Shown one piece after another: positions 8,033 through 59,460 of a DNA stretch of 64,000 bases (the first letter of the stretch is position 1; each line of letters starts with the position of its first letter). Made by a program: the position numbers and the translations under genes. The notes beneath the pieces were generated by a model, which had not been told where the DNA came from, did not search any database, and was given only the letters and a program-made list of their open reading frames with translations. The stretch is from Ruegeria aquimaris. Its GTDB lineage: Bacteria; Pseudomonadota; Alphaproteobacteria; Rhodobacterales; Rhodobacteraceae. Where the stretch lies: contig NZ_JAOWLB010000010.1 in the NCBI RefSeq assembly GCF_025751555.1, forward strand, positions 1 through 64,000, in the 5' to 3' direction.

Positions 8033-8069
8033 GCGGGGACGCGGGAAGCGACGCTTCCCGCGTCCCCGC
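8033..8069. terminator. perfect 18-bp inverted repeat between convergent genes
   Basis: The left arm (8033-8050) begins GCGGGGACGCGGG and the right arm (8052-8069) is its exact reverse complement, with a single A between. It sits in the 58-bp gap between the MDR oxidoreductase and the aldo/keto reductase and probably stops transcription from both sides, although neither side has a T tract. Confidence 0.65.
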
Positions 8070-9238: not shown

Positions 9239-9637
9239 ATGGCACAGAAGATAACCAAGGGCATCAAGACGCTGCTGAAAGAGGCGAACGCGGTGGTCGA
9301 CACGCTGTCGGTCGAAGAGGCCAAGGGGCTTTTTGACAATCCCGGCTATGTCTTCGTCGATCTGCGCGACATTCGCGAGTTGCAGCGTTCCGGTATGATC
9401 CCGGGGGCGTTTTCCTGCCCGCGCGGCATGCTGGAATTCTGGATCGACCCCGAGAGTCCCTATCACAAGGCGGTGTTCAACCAGGACAAGACCTATGTCT
9501 TTTACTGCGCCAGCGCCTGGCGGTCGGCCCTGTCGGCGAAGGTGGCTCAGGAAATGGGGCTGAGACCGGTGATGCATCTGGAAGGCGGCTTCACCGAATG
9601 GGTGAAGCAGGACGGTCCGGTGATCGAAAAGACCTGA
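9239..9637 (+). CDS. rhodanese-like domain protein
   Basis: The 132-aa product is a single rhodanese domain. VFVDLRDIRELQRSGMIPGA is the conserved entry to the fold, and the active-site loop is CASAWRSA with the nucleophilic Cys at the expected place after YVFY. Such single-domain proteins move sulfane sulfur between small thiols and proteins. GGGAGG lies five bases before the chosen ATG at 9239, and a longer upstream reading has no such site. The gene is divergent from the aldo/keto reductase and followed by an array of five hairpins. Confidence 0.9.
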   Translation: MAQKITKGIKTLLKEANAVVDTLSVEEAKGLFDNPGYVFVDLRDIRELQRSGMIPGAFSCPRGMLEFWIDPESPYHKAVFNQDKTYVFYCASAWRSALSAKVAQEMGLRPVMHLEGGFTEWVKQDGPVIEKT

Positions 9638-9650
9638 ACGCGCGCGGTCA

Positions 9651-9766
9651 CAAAGTGTCAATGACACTTTGCCCCAAGCGCCTGGAACAGGCGCTTGTAC
9701 AGGATTTTCAAAAATCCTGTGGACAAGGATTTCCTTAAATCCTTGATCCCGCGCCTGCCGCAGGCG
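9651..9766. repeat. array of five tandem hairpins
   Basis: Five different inverted repeats follow one another with only a few bases between them. They are CAAAGTGTCA/TGACACTTTG (9651-9671), CAAGCGCCTG/CAGGCGCTTG with loop GAA (9675-9697), ACAGGATTTT/AAAATCCTGT (9699-9720), CAAGGATTT/AAATCCTTG (9724-9745) and CGCCTGC/GCAGGCG (9752-9766). All arms pair perfectly. The array fills the gap between the rhodanese and metY genes. A similar array lies at 57999-58115. Confidence 0.85.
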
Positions 9767-9838
9767 GGCGCTTGTTGTCTGGCGGGCGCGTATCGCTTAG
9801 AGATTCGGGCAAGACATTTCCAAAGGGAGACTCCACCC

Positions 9839-11131
9839 ATGTCCGATACCCCCAGCTACGGCTTCGACACGTTGCAGATCCATGCCGGCGCCCGGCCCGA
9901 CCCGGCCACCGGCGCGCGGCAGACGCCGATCTATCAGACCACGGCCTATGTGTTCCGCGACGCCGATCACGCCGCCGCGCTCTTCAACCTGCAAGAGGTG
10001 GGCTATATCTATTCCCGCCTGACCAACCCCACCGTCGCCGTGTTGCAGGAGCGTATCGCCACGCTCGAAGGCGGGGTCGGCGCGGTCTGCTGCTCGTCGG
10101 GTCACGCGGCGCAGATCATGGCGCTCTTTCCGCTGATGGGACCGGGCTGCAACGTGGTGGCCTCGACCCGGCTATATGGTGGCACCGTCACCCAGTTCAG
10201 CCAGACCATCAAGCGGTTCGGCTGGTCGGCCAAGTTCGTCGATACCGACGATCTGGAGGCGGTGAAGGCCGCCATCGACGAAAACACAAGGGCGGTGTTT
10301 TGTGAATCGATCGCCAATCCCGGCGGCTATGTCACCGATATCCGCGCCCTGGCCGACGTGGCCGATGCCGCGGGCATCCCGCTGATCGTCGACAATACCA
10401 GCGCCACCCCCTATCTGTGCCGCCCCATCGAACAAGGCGCGACACTGGTGGTACATTCGACCACCAAGTACCTGACCGGCAACGGAACCGTCACCGGCGG
10501 CTGTATCGTGGATTCGGGGCGCTTCGACTGGTCGGCCAACGATAAGTTCCCCTCGCTCAGCGCGCCGGAACCGGCCTATCACGGGCTCAAGTTCCACGAG
10601 ACCTTTGGCTCGCTTGCCTTTACCTTCCACGGCATCGCCATCGGGTTGCGGGACCTGGGCATGACGATGAACCCGCAGGCCGCCCATTACACGCTGATGG
10701 GGATCGAGACGCTGAGCCTGCGCATGCAGCGCCATGTGGAGAACGCAAAGAAGGTGGCGGCCTGGCTCGAGGCCGATCCGCGGGTGGATTACGTGACCTA
10801 TGCCGGGCTGCCCTCGTCGCCCTATTATGACCGGGTGCAGAAATGCTATCCCAAAGGCGCGGGCGCGCTCTTTACCTTTGCGGTCAAGGGCGGCTACGAG
10901 GCCTGCGTCAAGCTGGTCAACGCGCTGGAGATCTTCAGCCATGTGGCCAACCTGGGTGACGCGCGCTCGCTGATCATCCATTCGGCCTCGACCACGCACC
11001 GCCAGTTGTCCCCCGCGCAGCAGGAGGCGGCAGGCGCCGGCCCCAATGTTGTGCGGGTATCGATCGGCATCGAGGATGCCGCCGACATCATCGCGGACCT
11101 CGACCAGGCCCTGACCAAGGCAACCGCCTGA
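9839..11131 (+). CDS. metY: O-acetylhomoserine aminocarboxypropyltransferase (sulfhydrylase)
   Basis: This 430-aa PLP enzyme of the Cys/Met metabolism family makes homocysteine from O-acetylhomoserine and sulfide. The PLP Lys210 lies in HSTTKYLTGNGTVTGG. Also typical are GFDTLQIHAGARPDP at the N-terminus, YSRLTNPTVAVLQERIA, and the long insertion region (FPSLSAPEPAYHGL) that separates MetY from shorter MetB/MetZ proteins. AAAGGGAGA precedes the ATG at 9839. A specificity for O-succinylhomoserine cannot be fully excluded, but length and motifs favour MetY. A strong terminator follows. Confidence 0.93.
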   Translation: MSDTPSYGFDTLQIHAGARPDPATGARQTPIYQTTAYVFRDADHAAALFNLQEVGYIYSRLTNPTVAVLQERIATLEGGVGAVCCSSGHAAQIMALFPLMGPGCNVVASTRLYGGTVTQFSQTIKRFGWSAKFVDTDDLEAVKAAIDENTRAVFCESIANPGGYVTDIRALADVADAAGIPLIVDNTSATPYLCRPIEQGATLVVHSTTKYLTGNGTVTGGCIVDSGRFDWSANDKFPSLSAPEPAYHGLKFHETFGSLAFTFHGIAIGLRDLGMTMNPQAAHYTLMGIETLSLRMQRHVENAKKVAAWLEADPRVDYVTYAGLPSSPYYDRVQKCYPKGAGALFTFAVKGGYEACVKLVNALEIFSHVANLGDARSLIIHSASTTHRQLSPAQQEAAGAGPNVVRVSIGIEDAADIIADLDQALTKATA

Positions 11132-28971: not shown

Positions 28972-28998
28972 CCAAGAAAATTCGACGAATTTTCTTGG
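28972..28998. repeat. 13-bp A+T-rich perfect inverted repeat
   Basis: CCAAGAAAATTCG and its exact complement CGAATTTTCTTGG flank a single A, 22 bases after the lysophospholipase stop codon. It could act as a terminator in either direction, and it resembles the A+T-rich members of the hairpin arrays at 9.7 and 58.0 kb. Confidence 0.6.
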
Positions 28999-42302: not shown

Positions 42303-44012
<1,710 letters not shown>

Positions 44013-56291: not shown

Positions 56292-58010
56292 ATGGCACGT
56301 ATTCTGATCACCTCGGCGATCCCTTATATCAACGGGATCAAGCACCTCGGCAATCTGGTGGGTTCGCAGCTGCCCGCCGATCTCTATGCGCGCTATCAGC
56401 GCGGCCGGGGCAATGAGGTGATGTTCCTCTGCGCCACCGACGAGCACGGCACCCCCGCCGAGCTGGCAGCTGCCAAGGCGGGCAAGCCGGTTGCCGAGTA
56501 TTGCGCCGAGATGCACGGGGTACAGGCCGATATCGCCCGCCGCTTTGGCCTGAGCTTCGACCATTTCGGGCGCTCTTCGAGCCCGCAGAACCACAGGCTG
56601 ACCCAGCATTTCGCAGGCAAGCTGGCCGAGAACGACCTGATCCGCGAAGTGAGCGAGCGGCAGGTCTATTCCAATGCCGATGGCCGGTTCCTGCCCGACC
56701 GCTATATCGAGGGCACCTGCCCCAATTGCGGTTACGACAAGGCGCGCGGCGACCAGTGCGAGAATTGCACCAAGCAGCTGGACCCGACCGACCTGATCGA
56801 GCCGCGCTCGGCCATTTCCGGATCGACGGATCTGGAGGTGCGCGAGACCAAGCACCTCTACCTGCGTCAGTCTGCGCTCAAGGATCAGCTCGACGCCTGG
56901 ATCGACTCGAAAACCGACTGGCCGTTGCTGACCACTTCGATCGCCAAGAAATGGCTGCATGACGGCGACGGCTTGCAGGATCGCGGCATCACCCGCGATC
57001 TGGACTGGGGCATCCCGGTGAAGAAGGGCGAGCAGGACTGGCCGGGGATGGAGGGCAAGGTCTTCTATGTCTGGTTCGACGCGCCGATCGAGTACATCGC
57101 CTGCGCGGGCGAATGGGCCCAGGCGCATGGCAAGAGCGACGCGGAATGGGAACGCTGGTGGCGCACCGACAAGGGTGCGGATGACGTGCGCTATGTGCAG
57201 TTCATGGGCAAGGACAACGTGCCCTTCCACACGCTGAGCTTTCCGGCCACCCTGATCGGCTCGGGCGAGCCGTGGAAGATGGTCGATCACCTGAAATCCT
57301 TCAACTACCTGAATTACGATGGCGGTCAGTTCTCGACCTCGCAGGGTCGTGGCGTGTTCATGGATCAGGCGCTGGAGATCCTGCCCGCCGACTATTGGCG
57401 CTGGTGGCTCTTGTCCCATGCGCCGGAAAACAGCGACAGCGAATTCACCTGGGAGAACTTCCAGGCCAGCGTGAACAAGGACCTGGCCGATGTGCTGGGC
57501 AATTTCGTCAGCCGGATCACCAAGTTCTGCCGCTCGAAGTTCGGCGAGGAAGTGCCCGAGGGCGGCACCTATGGCCCGCAGGAAGAGGCGCTGATCGCGG
57601 AACTGACGACGCGGGTGCGCGCCTACGAGGGGCATATGGAGGCGATGGAGGTCCGCAAGTCGGCGCAGGAGTTGCGCGCGATCTGGGCGGCAGGCAATGA
57701 GTATCTGCAAAGCGCCGCTCCCTGGACCCTGTTCAAGACCGACCCGGTGCAGGCGGCGGCGCAGGTGCGGCTGGGTCTGAACCTGATCCGGCTTTACGCG
57801 GTGCTCTCGGCCCCGTTCATTCCCGCCTCCTCGGCGCGGATGCTGGAGGCGATGCAGACGACAGACGACAGCTGGCCCGAGGATGTTGCAGGCGCGCTGA
57901 GCGTTCTGGCCCCGGGTCACGCCTTCACGGTGCCCGAAGTCCTGTTTGCCAAGATCTCGGACGAGGATCGCGAAGACTGGCAGCAGCGGTTTTCCGGCGT
58001 GCGGTCCTGA
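56292..58010 (+). CDS. metG: methionyl-tRNA synthetase
   Basis: The 572-aa class I synthetase has [20 protein letters not shown] with the HIGH-like KHLG motif, a zinc knuckle of four cysteines ([19 protein letters not shown]), and EYIACAGEW. The KMSKS position reads QFSTSQGRG (residues 346-354), so both lysines of the usual loop are replaced. The rest of the fold ([20 protein letters not shown], anticodon-binding helices) is intact, so the enzyme should be functional. There is no C-terminal dimerisation domain. The stop codon lies inside the first hairpin of an array. Confidence 0.96.
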
Positions 58011-58115
58011 CCGCACGACAAGGTTTCACCGAAACCTTGTAAACACGATTTGATTCAAATCGTGTTCCAGCGCCTTTCCAAGGCGCTGGAGACAGGAATT
58101 TACTACAAATTCCTG
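57999..58115. repeat. second array of five tandem hairpins, at the metG 3' end
   Basis: The stems are GTGCGGTC/GACCGCAC over the metG stop (57999-58016), ACAAGGTTTC/GAAACCTTGT (58018-58040), AACACGATTTGA/TCAAATCGTGTT (58042-58066), CCAGCGCCTT/AAGGCGCTGG (58067-58089) and CAGGAATTT/AAATTCCTG (58093-58115). All arms pair perfectly and neighbours are 0-3 bases apart. The last two correspond in order and type to hairpins two and three of the array at 9651-9766. Confidence 0.85.
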
Positions 58116-58137
58116 CCCCGTTCAGCCGCTGTGCTTG

Positions 58138-59460
58138 TCAACGCAACACGTCCTCAAGTGCGGCCTGAAGTCTTTGGGCGATCAGCCCGGCATCCGCCTC
58201 GGCCATGACAAACGGCGGCGCCAGCAGAACGTGGTCACCATTGCGCCCGTCACGGGTCCCGGGCATCGGGTAGCAGATCAGCCCCTGCGCCATGGCGGCT
58301 TTCTTGAGCTTGCCCGCCACGCCTTTCGCCGGGTCAAACGACACCTTGCCATCGCGATCGACGACCAGCTCCACGCCCCAGAACAGCCCCCGGCCTCGGA
58401 TGTCGCCCACGTTGGGATGCTGGCCAAACGCCTTGCGCAACTCCCGTTCCATGACCGGTTCCAGCGCCCGCACCCGCGCAGGCAGGTCACGCTCCAGCAT
58501 CTCACGCAACACCGCCAGCCCGGCGGCGGTGGCAACCGGGTGGCCGATATAGGTATGCCCGTGCTGGAAAAAGCCCGAGCCACTGGCGATGGCGTCATAG
58601 ATCGCCCCCGAGCACAGCATCGCCCCCACCGGCTGGTAGCCCGCCCCCAGCCCCTTGGCGATGGTGACGATATCGGGCCGCACTCCCTCGCCCATGCAGG
58701 CAAAGAGATGACCGGTGCGCCCCATGCCACACATCACCTCGTCCAGGATCAGGAGCACGCCATACTTGTCACAGATCTCGCGGATGCGGGCGAAATACCC
58801 TTCGACCGCAGGCACCGCACCCAGGGTTGCGCCCACCACCGGCTCGGCGATAAACCCCATCACCGTGTCAGCGCCCAGCCGCAGGATCTCGGCCTCCAGC
58901 TCGTCCGCGGCGCGGCGTCCATACTCGGCGAGGCTCTCGCCCTCGGCCCGCTCGGCATATTCATAGCAAGGCGCGATATGGCTGACCCCAATCAACAGCG
59001 GATCAAACTGCGCCCGCCGCCAGGCATTGCCGCCCGCCGCCAGCGCCCCCAGCGTGTTGCCGTGATAGCTCTGCCGCCGGGCGATCAGGTGGCGCCGTTC
59101 GGGTTGCCCCACTTCCAGATAGTACTGCCGCGCCAGCTTGATCGCAGCCTCGATCGCCTCGGATCCGCCCGAGACGAAATAGACGCGCTCGATTCCCTCC
59201 GGCGCGTTGGCGATCAAGAGATCGGCCAGATCCTCGGCCGGATCAGAGGTGAAAAAGCCGGTATGGGCAAAGGCCAGCCGGTCCACCTGATCCTTGATCG
59301 CCTGTTTCACGCGGTCGTTGGAATGGCCAAGGCAGGACACCGCCGCCCCACCCGAGGCGTCGAAATAGCGCTTGCCGGTGCTGTCTATGAGGTAACAGCC
59401 CTCGCCGCCCACGGCAGTGGGCAGTTGCGCGTGACAGTGACGGGGGAAGACATGGCTCAT
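58138..59460 (-). CDS. class III PLP aminotransferase
   Basis: The 440-aa omega/beta-aminotransferase-type enzyme shows YFDASGGAAVSCLGHSNDRV, YFVSGGSEAIEAAIKLARQY, ILDEVMCGMGRTGHLFACMG (the Asp that binds the PLP nitrogen), and the PLP-Lys motif IVTIAKGLGAGYQPVGAM. HGHTYIGHPVATAAGLAVL is also typical. The donor and acceptor cannot be read from sequence. Its ATG overlaps the stop codon of the preceding BKACE gene (ATGA), so the two are made together, most simply giving a beta-keto acid for that enzyme to cleave. Confidence 0.9.
   Translation of the reverse strand: MSHVFPRHCHAQLPTAVGGEGCYLIDSTGKRYFDASGGAAVSCLGHSNDRVKQAIKDQVDRLAFAHTGFFTSDPAEDLADLLIANAPEGIERVYFVSGGSEAIEAAIKLARQYYLEVGQPERRHLIARRQSYHGNTLGALAAGGNAWRRAQFDPLLIGVSHIAPCYEYAERAEGESLAEYGRRAADELEAEILRLGADTVMGFIAEPVVGATLGAVPAVEGYFARIREICDKYGVLLILDEVMCGMGRTGHLFACMGEGVRPDIVTIAKGLGAGYQPVGAMLCSGAIYDAIASGSGFFQHGHTYIGHPVATAAGLAVLREMLERDLPARVRALEPVMERELRKAFGQHPNVGDIRGRGLFWGVELVVDRDGKVSFDPAKGVAGKLKKAAMAQGLICYPMPGTRDGRNGDHVLLAPPFVMAEADAGLIAQRLQAALEDVLR

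Follow-up and report, generated by a model that had tools for sequence, protein, structure and literature searches.

The hairpin pairs found at two loci of Ruegeria aquimaris are parts of larger hairpin arrays, one of four perfect hairpins with an imperfect fifth and one of five, and these arrays belong to a class that is over-represented at gene 3' ends in the genus. With confidence that we put at about even, the arrays are predicted to be 3'-end elements, acting as hairpin-cluster terminators or as exonuclease barriers. The whole stretch of DNA analysed, referred to below as the window, comprised 64,000 nt. A preliminary description of it had proposed a shared two-hairpin unit, a G+C stem closely followed by an A+T stem, and this succession was recovered at both sites (1-base gap in array 1, 2-base gap in array 2). 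The two-hairpin unit was the wrong grain, the class being one of hairpin arrays with locus-specific stems. The following features were assigned at the first locus:

9239 to 9637, plus strand: gene upstream of array 1, rhodanese-domain protein (Pfam PF00581, E 1.2e-18)
9651 to 9745: array 1, four perfect hairpins, stems of 9-10 bp, loops of 2-4 nt
9651 to 9671: array 1 hairpin 1, perfect palindrome, 9 bp, loop AAT
9675 to 9697: array 1 hairpin 2, perfect G+C stem, 10 bp, CAAGCGCCTG-GAA-CAGGCGCTTG
9699 to 9720: array 1 hairpin 3, perfect A+T stem, 10 bp, ACAGGATTTT-CA-AAAATCCTGT
9724 to 9745: array 1 hairpin 4, perfect palindrome, 9 bp, loop CCTT
9751 to 9771, plus strand: imperfect fifth hairpin of array 1, one G-U pair, weak T-rich tail
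9839 to 11131, plus strand: gene downstream of array 1, O-acetylhomoserine aminocarboxypropyltransferase (TIGR01326, 591.6 bits, cut-off 495.1)

Array 1 starts 13 nt past the stop codon of the rhodanese-domain gene and ends 93 nt before the aminocarboxypropyltransferase gene on the same strand. When 9645-9775 was folded as RNA (plus strand), a z-score of -8.95 was obtained, and none of 200 shuffled sequences was as stable. The array is present in four of the five genus genomes and absent from G121. In an alignment of the four orthologues, one of the nine pairs of hairpin 1 was broken in G122; all pairs of hairpin 2 (10/10; loops GAA, GAA, TTC, and ATC), hairpin 3 (10/10), and hairpin 4 (9/9; loops CCTT, CCTT, CAGG, and CAGG) were invariant. 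The hairpin at 9751-9771 was terminator-like in a consensus scan (two such sites in 901 bases, against a mean of 0.6 in shuffled sequences), and relatives carry a different sequence there. The features of the second locus were as follows:

56292 to 58010, plus strand: gene upstream of array 2, methionine--tRNA ligase metG (TIGR00398, 465.8 bits, cut-off 336.35)
57998 to 58115: array 2, five perfect hairpins, stems of 9-11 bp
57998 to 58017: array 2 hairpin 1, 9 bp, overlapping the metG stop codon
58018 to 58040: array 2 hairpin 2, perfect, 10 bp, loop ACC
58042 to 58066: array 2 hairpin 3, perfect, 11 bp, loop ATT
58066 to 58090: array 2 hairpin 4, perfect G+C stem, 11 bp, TCCAGCGCCTT-TCC-AAGGCGCTGGA
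58093 to 58115: array 2 hairpin 5, perfect A+T stem, 9 bp, CAGGAATTT-ACTAC-AAATTCCTG
58138 to 59460, minus strand: convergent gene of array 2, class-III aminotransferase (NF005685, 753.3 bits, cut-off 485)

Array 2 is located partly within the 127-nt gap that separates metG from the convergent aminotransferase gene and partly next to it. The fold of 57995-58120 gave z-scores of -11.93 (plus strand) and -10.67 (minus strand), with 0/200 shuffles as stable on each strand. The array is intact in three of the five genus genomes, decayed in G121 except for one hairpin, and absent from G120. Hairpin 1 occurs in the window's own genome and in Ruegeria sp. PrR005 and was not found in the other three genus genomes; the stem of hairpin 2 is the same in these two genomes, G122, and G121. 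For hairpin 3 a common 9-bp core, and for hairpins 4 and 5 the same stem (with differing loops in hairpin 5), was found in three genomes, all three hairpins being broken in G121. At the decayed G121 locus (L209:2219-2316) the ACAAGGTTTC hairpin was observed to be intact, and the next three carry unpaired changes. In other genera, no array was seen downstream of metG at the 28 loci inspected (118 of the 120 family genomes have metG).

For the census, arrays were defined as at least two perfect hairpins with a stem of at least 8 bp, a loop of 2-8 nt, and a gap of at most 15 nt. The sample came to 2.464 Mb: 864 kb from the window's own genome (G000), the window among them, and 800 kb from each of G120 (R. 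pomeroyi) and G122; block coordinates of G120 and G122 are converted by adding 2,400,000 and 1,000,000, respectively. Genes were called with a home-made codon-usage finder, the calls of which contain visible errors, and counts that pool G120 and G122 include orthologues and are not independent. The window alone holds 20 perfect hairpins with stems of at least 9 bp and loops of 2-8 nt, as compared with 2-6 in each of ten first-order Markov sequences. Across the three genomes 66 arrays were found, 25 of them with three or more hairpins, and the 288 kb of spacer DNA contained 57, against 0, 1, 0, 0, and 0 in five third-order Markov nulls of equal length. Among the array hairpins outside called genes, the loop was 3 nt long in 103/160 and the stem 9-11 bp long in 126/160, and neighbouring centres were 24 nt apart in 42 of 97 cases. 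The pitch was more even than in shuffled arrays (standard deviation 1.36 versus 2.36; 88 neighbours with gaps of at most 5), a result that is partly definitional, a longer stem shortening the gap. The median energy was -12.6 kcal/mol for array hairpins and -18.7 kcal/mol for single hairpins, the array hairpins thus being the weaker ones. A search with Rfam 15 above curated thresholds gave no match at either array.

Two hits elsewhere in the window were returned by that search, a tRNA and a match to the 5'ureB sRNA (RF02514, 95.9 bits; 42456-42743, minus strand). The latter, an antisense RNA family of Helicobacter, probably matched only as a reflection of conserved urease coding sequence. Two further hairpins of the window were recorded. 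At 8033-8069 a 3-nt loop closes a perfect 17-bp stem, and no other perfect stem of the window with a loop of 2-8 nt is as long. The one at 28972-28998 is a single-hairpin element of the form AATTCG-N-CGAATT. Its arms are for the most part long and A+T, and GGGGGCAGCGCC-like sequence stands next to some of the copies; it occurs once in the window and seven times in the 800 kb of each of G120 and G122, and none was found in the sampled stretches of C11, C33, and C59.

By gene context, 36 of the 66 arrays were tandem, 26 convergent, one divergent, and three inside called genes, whereas the spacers of at least 50 nt available numbered 721, 180, and 314 for the tandem, convergent, and divergent arrangement, respectively (Fisher test: divergent deficit 5e-7, convergent excess 8e-7). 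The sole divergent case (G122 block 504287) is a gene-call error: the array is orthologous to array 1, and its rhodanese gene was called wrongly. The array at G122 block 472135, orthologous to the one after metG, had entered the count as tandem. In 26/36 tandem cases the array start lay at -16 to +21 nt relative to the upstream stop codon. A canonical Rho-independent terminator consists of a 3' stem-loop whose stem is followed at once by a U-tract. At several loci a terminator of the canonical kind separates the stop codon from the array (7/36 tandem regions flagged, orthologues included), and the array would therefore be a backup there.

Stem conservation was measured on 40 orthologous array hairpins of G120 and G122, of which 34 had identical stems. 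Differing bases amounted to 1.6% in stems, 24.4% in loops, and 21.8% in nearby spacer; the corresponding values were 6.2%, 25.7%, and 12.7% for single spacer hairpins, and 8.4% (stems) and 11.5% (loops) for perfect palindromes picked likewise inside genes. Single 3' hairpins thus share the slow-stem trend more weakly, so that arrays are not distinguished by slow stems alone. Between G000 and G122 or G120, array stems differed by 5.6% or 5.3% (13 or 12 hairpins) and loops by 49% or 31%. Retention of the stems together with free change of the loops points to a selected structure that would act at transcript ends.

In the preliminary description it had been argued from base changes affecting both arms that the unit was under covariation. 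The arms do differ between the two copies as stated (CAAGCGCCTG and CCAGCGCCTT), but the copies are different, non-orthologous loci. Among the four orthologues of array 1, 37 of 38 pairs were invariant and none had changed on both sides; because the stems hardly vary, they show no covariation, and the argument does not hold for the two-hairpin unit. Compensatory changes were found at other orthologous arrays: ACAAGGTTTT is replaced by ACAGGGTTTT together with the matching arm (C11:371048 versus G120 and G122), CGGCCTGG by CGGCCCGG and CCGTTTTTCG by CCGTTTTCCG (G120:385673 and 385700 versus G122), and one compensatory pair is present in G120:685917. At G120:122612 the first stem is a different palindrome from that in C33, and the second has changed and become shorter; this block and its C33 locus are only partly included in the orthologue counts. 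Counted in one direction over three species pairs, arrays gave 7 compensatory, 3 uncompensated double, and 19 single changes in 637 pairs, and palindromes inside genes 16, 17, and 286 in 1746; with reciprocal comparisons the figures were 13, 7, and 51 of 1314 and 31, 28, and 562 of 3397, all of these being raw counts in which the compensatory events are few and partly shared between comparisons. Nine of the 141 array rows were dropped from these counts owing to stem gaps, and paralogous three-hairpin modules were left out since one stem was out of register in their alignment and since they had been picked for perfect pairing and would have made the count circular. The main signal is the near-freezing of the stems, compensatory changes existing in small number. 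The wider claim, that the structure is maintained as an element and does not represent two separate terminators, is borne out by the over-representation of the arrays and their position at gene 3' ends, and further by stems that are kept while loops drift and by the few orthologous compensatory double changes. Unpaired arm changes in other copies, named at the outset as evidence against such an element, were found in part: of the four metG hairpins retained by its relatives, three have decayed in G121.

G-U pairs were counted on the gene strand of tandem spacers, with A-C mismatches as background. Among single hairpins, 102 were perfect, and of those with one non-Watson-Crick pair 41 had G-U and 17 had A-C, an excess such as RNA selection predicts. 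Beside arrays and other perfect hairpins there were one G-U (the window's 9751-9771), no A-C, and two others versus 69 perfect array hairpins, a scarcity of G-U relative to single hairpins with p = 2e-7 (2e-4 with background subtracted). Loop composition on the gene strand was nearly symmetric, and these two observations favour a constraint at the DNA level. A three-hairpin sub-family (TTTTC-type, GAAAA-type, and GGAATT-type, types defined after the list had been seen) keeps the same succession with respect to the upstream gene at 6/6 tandem loci of R. pomeroyi; in G120:723332, an array of two hairpins, the first two types are reversed. In R. pomeroyi and G122 a hairpin is often an inside-out copy of its neighbour, the 3' arm resembling the next 5' arm (0/1000 permutations as high in both), and in the window's own genome this relation did not reach significance (p = 0.196). 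Examples of such neighbours in G120 were noted at L244, L273, L276, and L280.

The individual stems were followed in the window's genome and in the family. The pair AGCGCCT and AGGCGCT, at most 12 nt apart, on which the G+C stem had been said to be built, occurred at three places in the 5.04-Mb genome, two of them the arrays and one with a 12-nt loop, and a backwards-pattern control gave one. Near-confinement of this stem to the two arrays partly matches the other outcome named at the outset as evidence against the unit. The loose stem GATTT/AAATC was found at 34 places in the same genome (control: 2), CAGGATTT at 5 places and in 3/120 family genomes (two genera), and CGGAAAAC at one place and in 11/120 family genomes. 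Arrays with partly other stems were met in Roseovarius atlanticus (five hairpins), in a Paracoccaceae MAG (two sets of three), in G082, and in an uncultured Rhodobacteraceae genome; these loci were fetched through a shared stem and are not a fair sample. From these sequences the stems look lineage-specific, and the layout appears to be wider. The ACAGGATTT/AAATCCTGT pattern matched at least 118 stretches of sequenced genomes from many phyla (G+C above 55% in 17 of the 118 matches listed), and its scan led to the loci in Ruegeria pomeroyi, Ruegeria sp. PrR005, and Roseovarius.

A 3'-end function would operate as follows. In Ruegeria, two to five short perfect hairpins with a pitch of about 24 nt stand mostly right after stop codons. 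Once transcribed, they would fold successively behind RNA polymerase and act jointly, either by releasing the polymerase without a U-tract, as in hairpin-cluster termination, or by blocking 3'-5' exonucleases after Rho-dependent release; in either option the mRNA end would lie at the array. A palindromic stem is unchanged when the opposite strand is read, so that a single array could act for both genes of a convergent pair, such as metG and the aminotransferase. Evidence for this function is provided by the census against the nulls, the gene context, the start near the stop codon, the slow stems, and the sub-family order. Against an RNA-only constraint stands the near-absence of G-U, which such a constraint should tolerate; the terminators ahead of some arrays, the symmetric loops, hairpins weaker than single ones, the out-of-order array G120:723332, and the absence or decay of arrays in some relatives also weigh against a 3'-end function. 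Two or more ordinary Rho-independent terminators side by side by chance would fit hairpin size and position, and the weak terminator-like hairpin at 9751-9771 does follow array 1; this origin is very improbable in view of the even pitch, of arrays of up to five hairpins, and of the U-tracts, at least five T in the next 9 nt being present after only 3/69 array hairpins in tandem spacers as compared with 28/102 single hairpins (p = 8e-5).

The DNA itself may be the level of action, in that REP/BIME-like palindromes would serve as duplex or cruciform, for example as topoisomerase or nucleoid protein sites, and would be left at 3' ends since insertion elsewhere harms promoters. The near-strict Watson-Crick pairing and symmetric loops speak for this account, as do presence or absence at orthologous spacers, stem types recurring across loci, the inside-out neighbours of R. 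pomeroyi and G122, and arrays lying beyond a canonical terminator. We nevertheless consider it a doubtful, if real, possibility and place the RNA 3'-end function ahead of it: the Y1 (RAYT-type) transposase (PF01797) was found in 0/5 genus genomes (a control search was positive in 5/14 genomes including E. coli), the listed arms have no common head sequence and few copies per stem type, the sub-family keeps a single order relative to transcription, divergent spacers are avoided, and the inside-out relation lacks significance in the window's genome. Rather unlikely, in our judgement, is a distinct class characterised by the pitch of about 24 nt, near-strict Watson-Crick modules, locus-fixed stems, inside-out neighbours in some lineages, and lineage-specific stem dialects, which would be read by a dedicated hairpin-binding factor or act as cruciform DNA between genes. 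As a purely mutational product, with little or no function, the arrays would have arisen by template switching during replication, a process that generates hairpins without mismatches and mends their arms. Such an origin agrees with the perfect arms and the compensatory double changes, and also with loop inversion, 4 of the 39 loops that had changed at equal length being exact inversions (mean of 1.12 in permutations, p = 0.02, with non-independent pairs); the mean inverted loop identity was not significant (p = 0.13). Arm-to-arm correction alone would, by our reasoning, allow approximately neutral stem drift, whereas stems differ by 1.6% as against 22-24% in spacer and loops, and placement at gene ends is left unexplained. 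The stem rate disfavours template switching as the sole cause, which we regard as improbable.

Hairpin-cluster terminators (Gupta and Pal 2021, PMC8355165) are described there as at least two hairpins less than 15 nt apart, mostly at most 80 nt from the stop codon, with no U-tract needed. The Ruegeria arrays resemble them in spacing (less than 15 nt in both window arrays, the 66 arrays being defined at gaps of at most 15 nt) and in distance, with 31/36 tandem arrays starting at most 80 nt from the upstream stop codon. The published class also coincides with a drop in RNA-seq coverage. The Ruegeria arrays differ in that their perfect stems contain almost no G-U, follow an even pitch, and scarcely change between species. 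The main text of that article names neither Rhodobacter nor Alphaproteobacteria, and according to it no sequence is conserved in the 25 bases next to the stop codon. Enrichment of inverted repeats behind bacterial stop codons is reported in PMC13155455, with arms that are conserved and spacers that vary near terminators, and the arm-versus-loop pattern is shared by the Ruegeria arrays; as far as the passages cited go, that work concerns single inverted repeats and within-species variation with prevailing spacers of 4-5 nt, as opposed to tandem arrays compared between species with 3-nt loops commonest. REP/BIME elements (PMC2817692), which resemble the arrays less closely, are likewise extragenic palindromes in clusters, for which aid to Rho-dependent termination is among the roles cited. 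The Ruegeria arrays differ from what is described there by having no GTAG-type shared head in the listed arms and few copies per stem, the copy numbers, counted genome-wide for GATTT/AAATC, CAGGATTT, and CGGAAAAC, falling short of those of REP/BIME. For template switching, proposed in PMC8794818 as a source of perfect stems and loop inversion, the likeness lies in perfect stems, compensatory changes, and occasional loop inversion; it is a mutation mechanism, which alone does not explain slow stems and placement at gene ends. With canonical Rho-independent terminators the arrays share the stem-loop at the gene 3' end; they differ in that U-tracts are rare and several hairpins follow one another.

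The general pattern is thus already in print, both as hairpin clusters and as conserved arms with variable loops near terminators. In the openly licensed PMC literature searched, no description of arrays from Ruegeria or Rhodobacteraceae was found, and the regular pitch, frozen stems, G-U rarity, and ordered modules seen in Ruegeria were not met. To our knowledge, the mapping of transcript ends is poor in marine alphaproteobacteria, and few experiments underlie the hairpin clusters that lack a U-tract. One genus now offers dozens of regular, conserved arrays, including the one after metG, that are directly testable in R. pomeroyi. RNA folding alone does not readily account for the near-absence of G-U or for the frozen stems, and with these features action as RNA and action as DNA can be separated experimentally.
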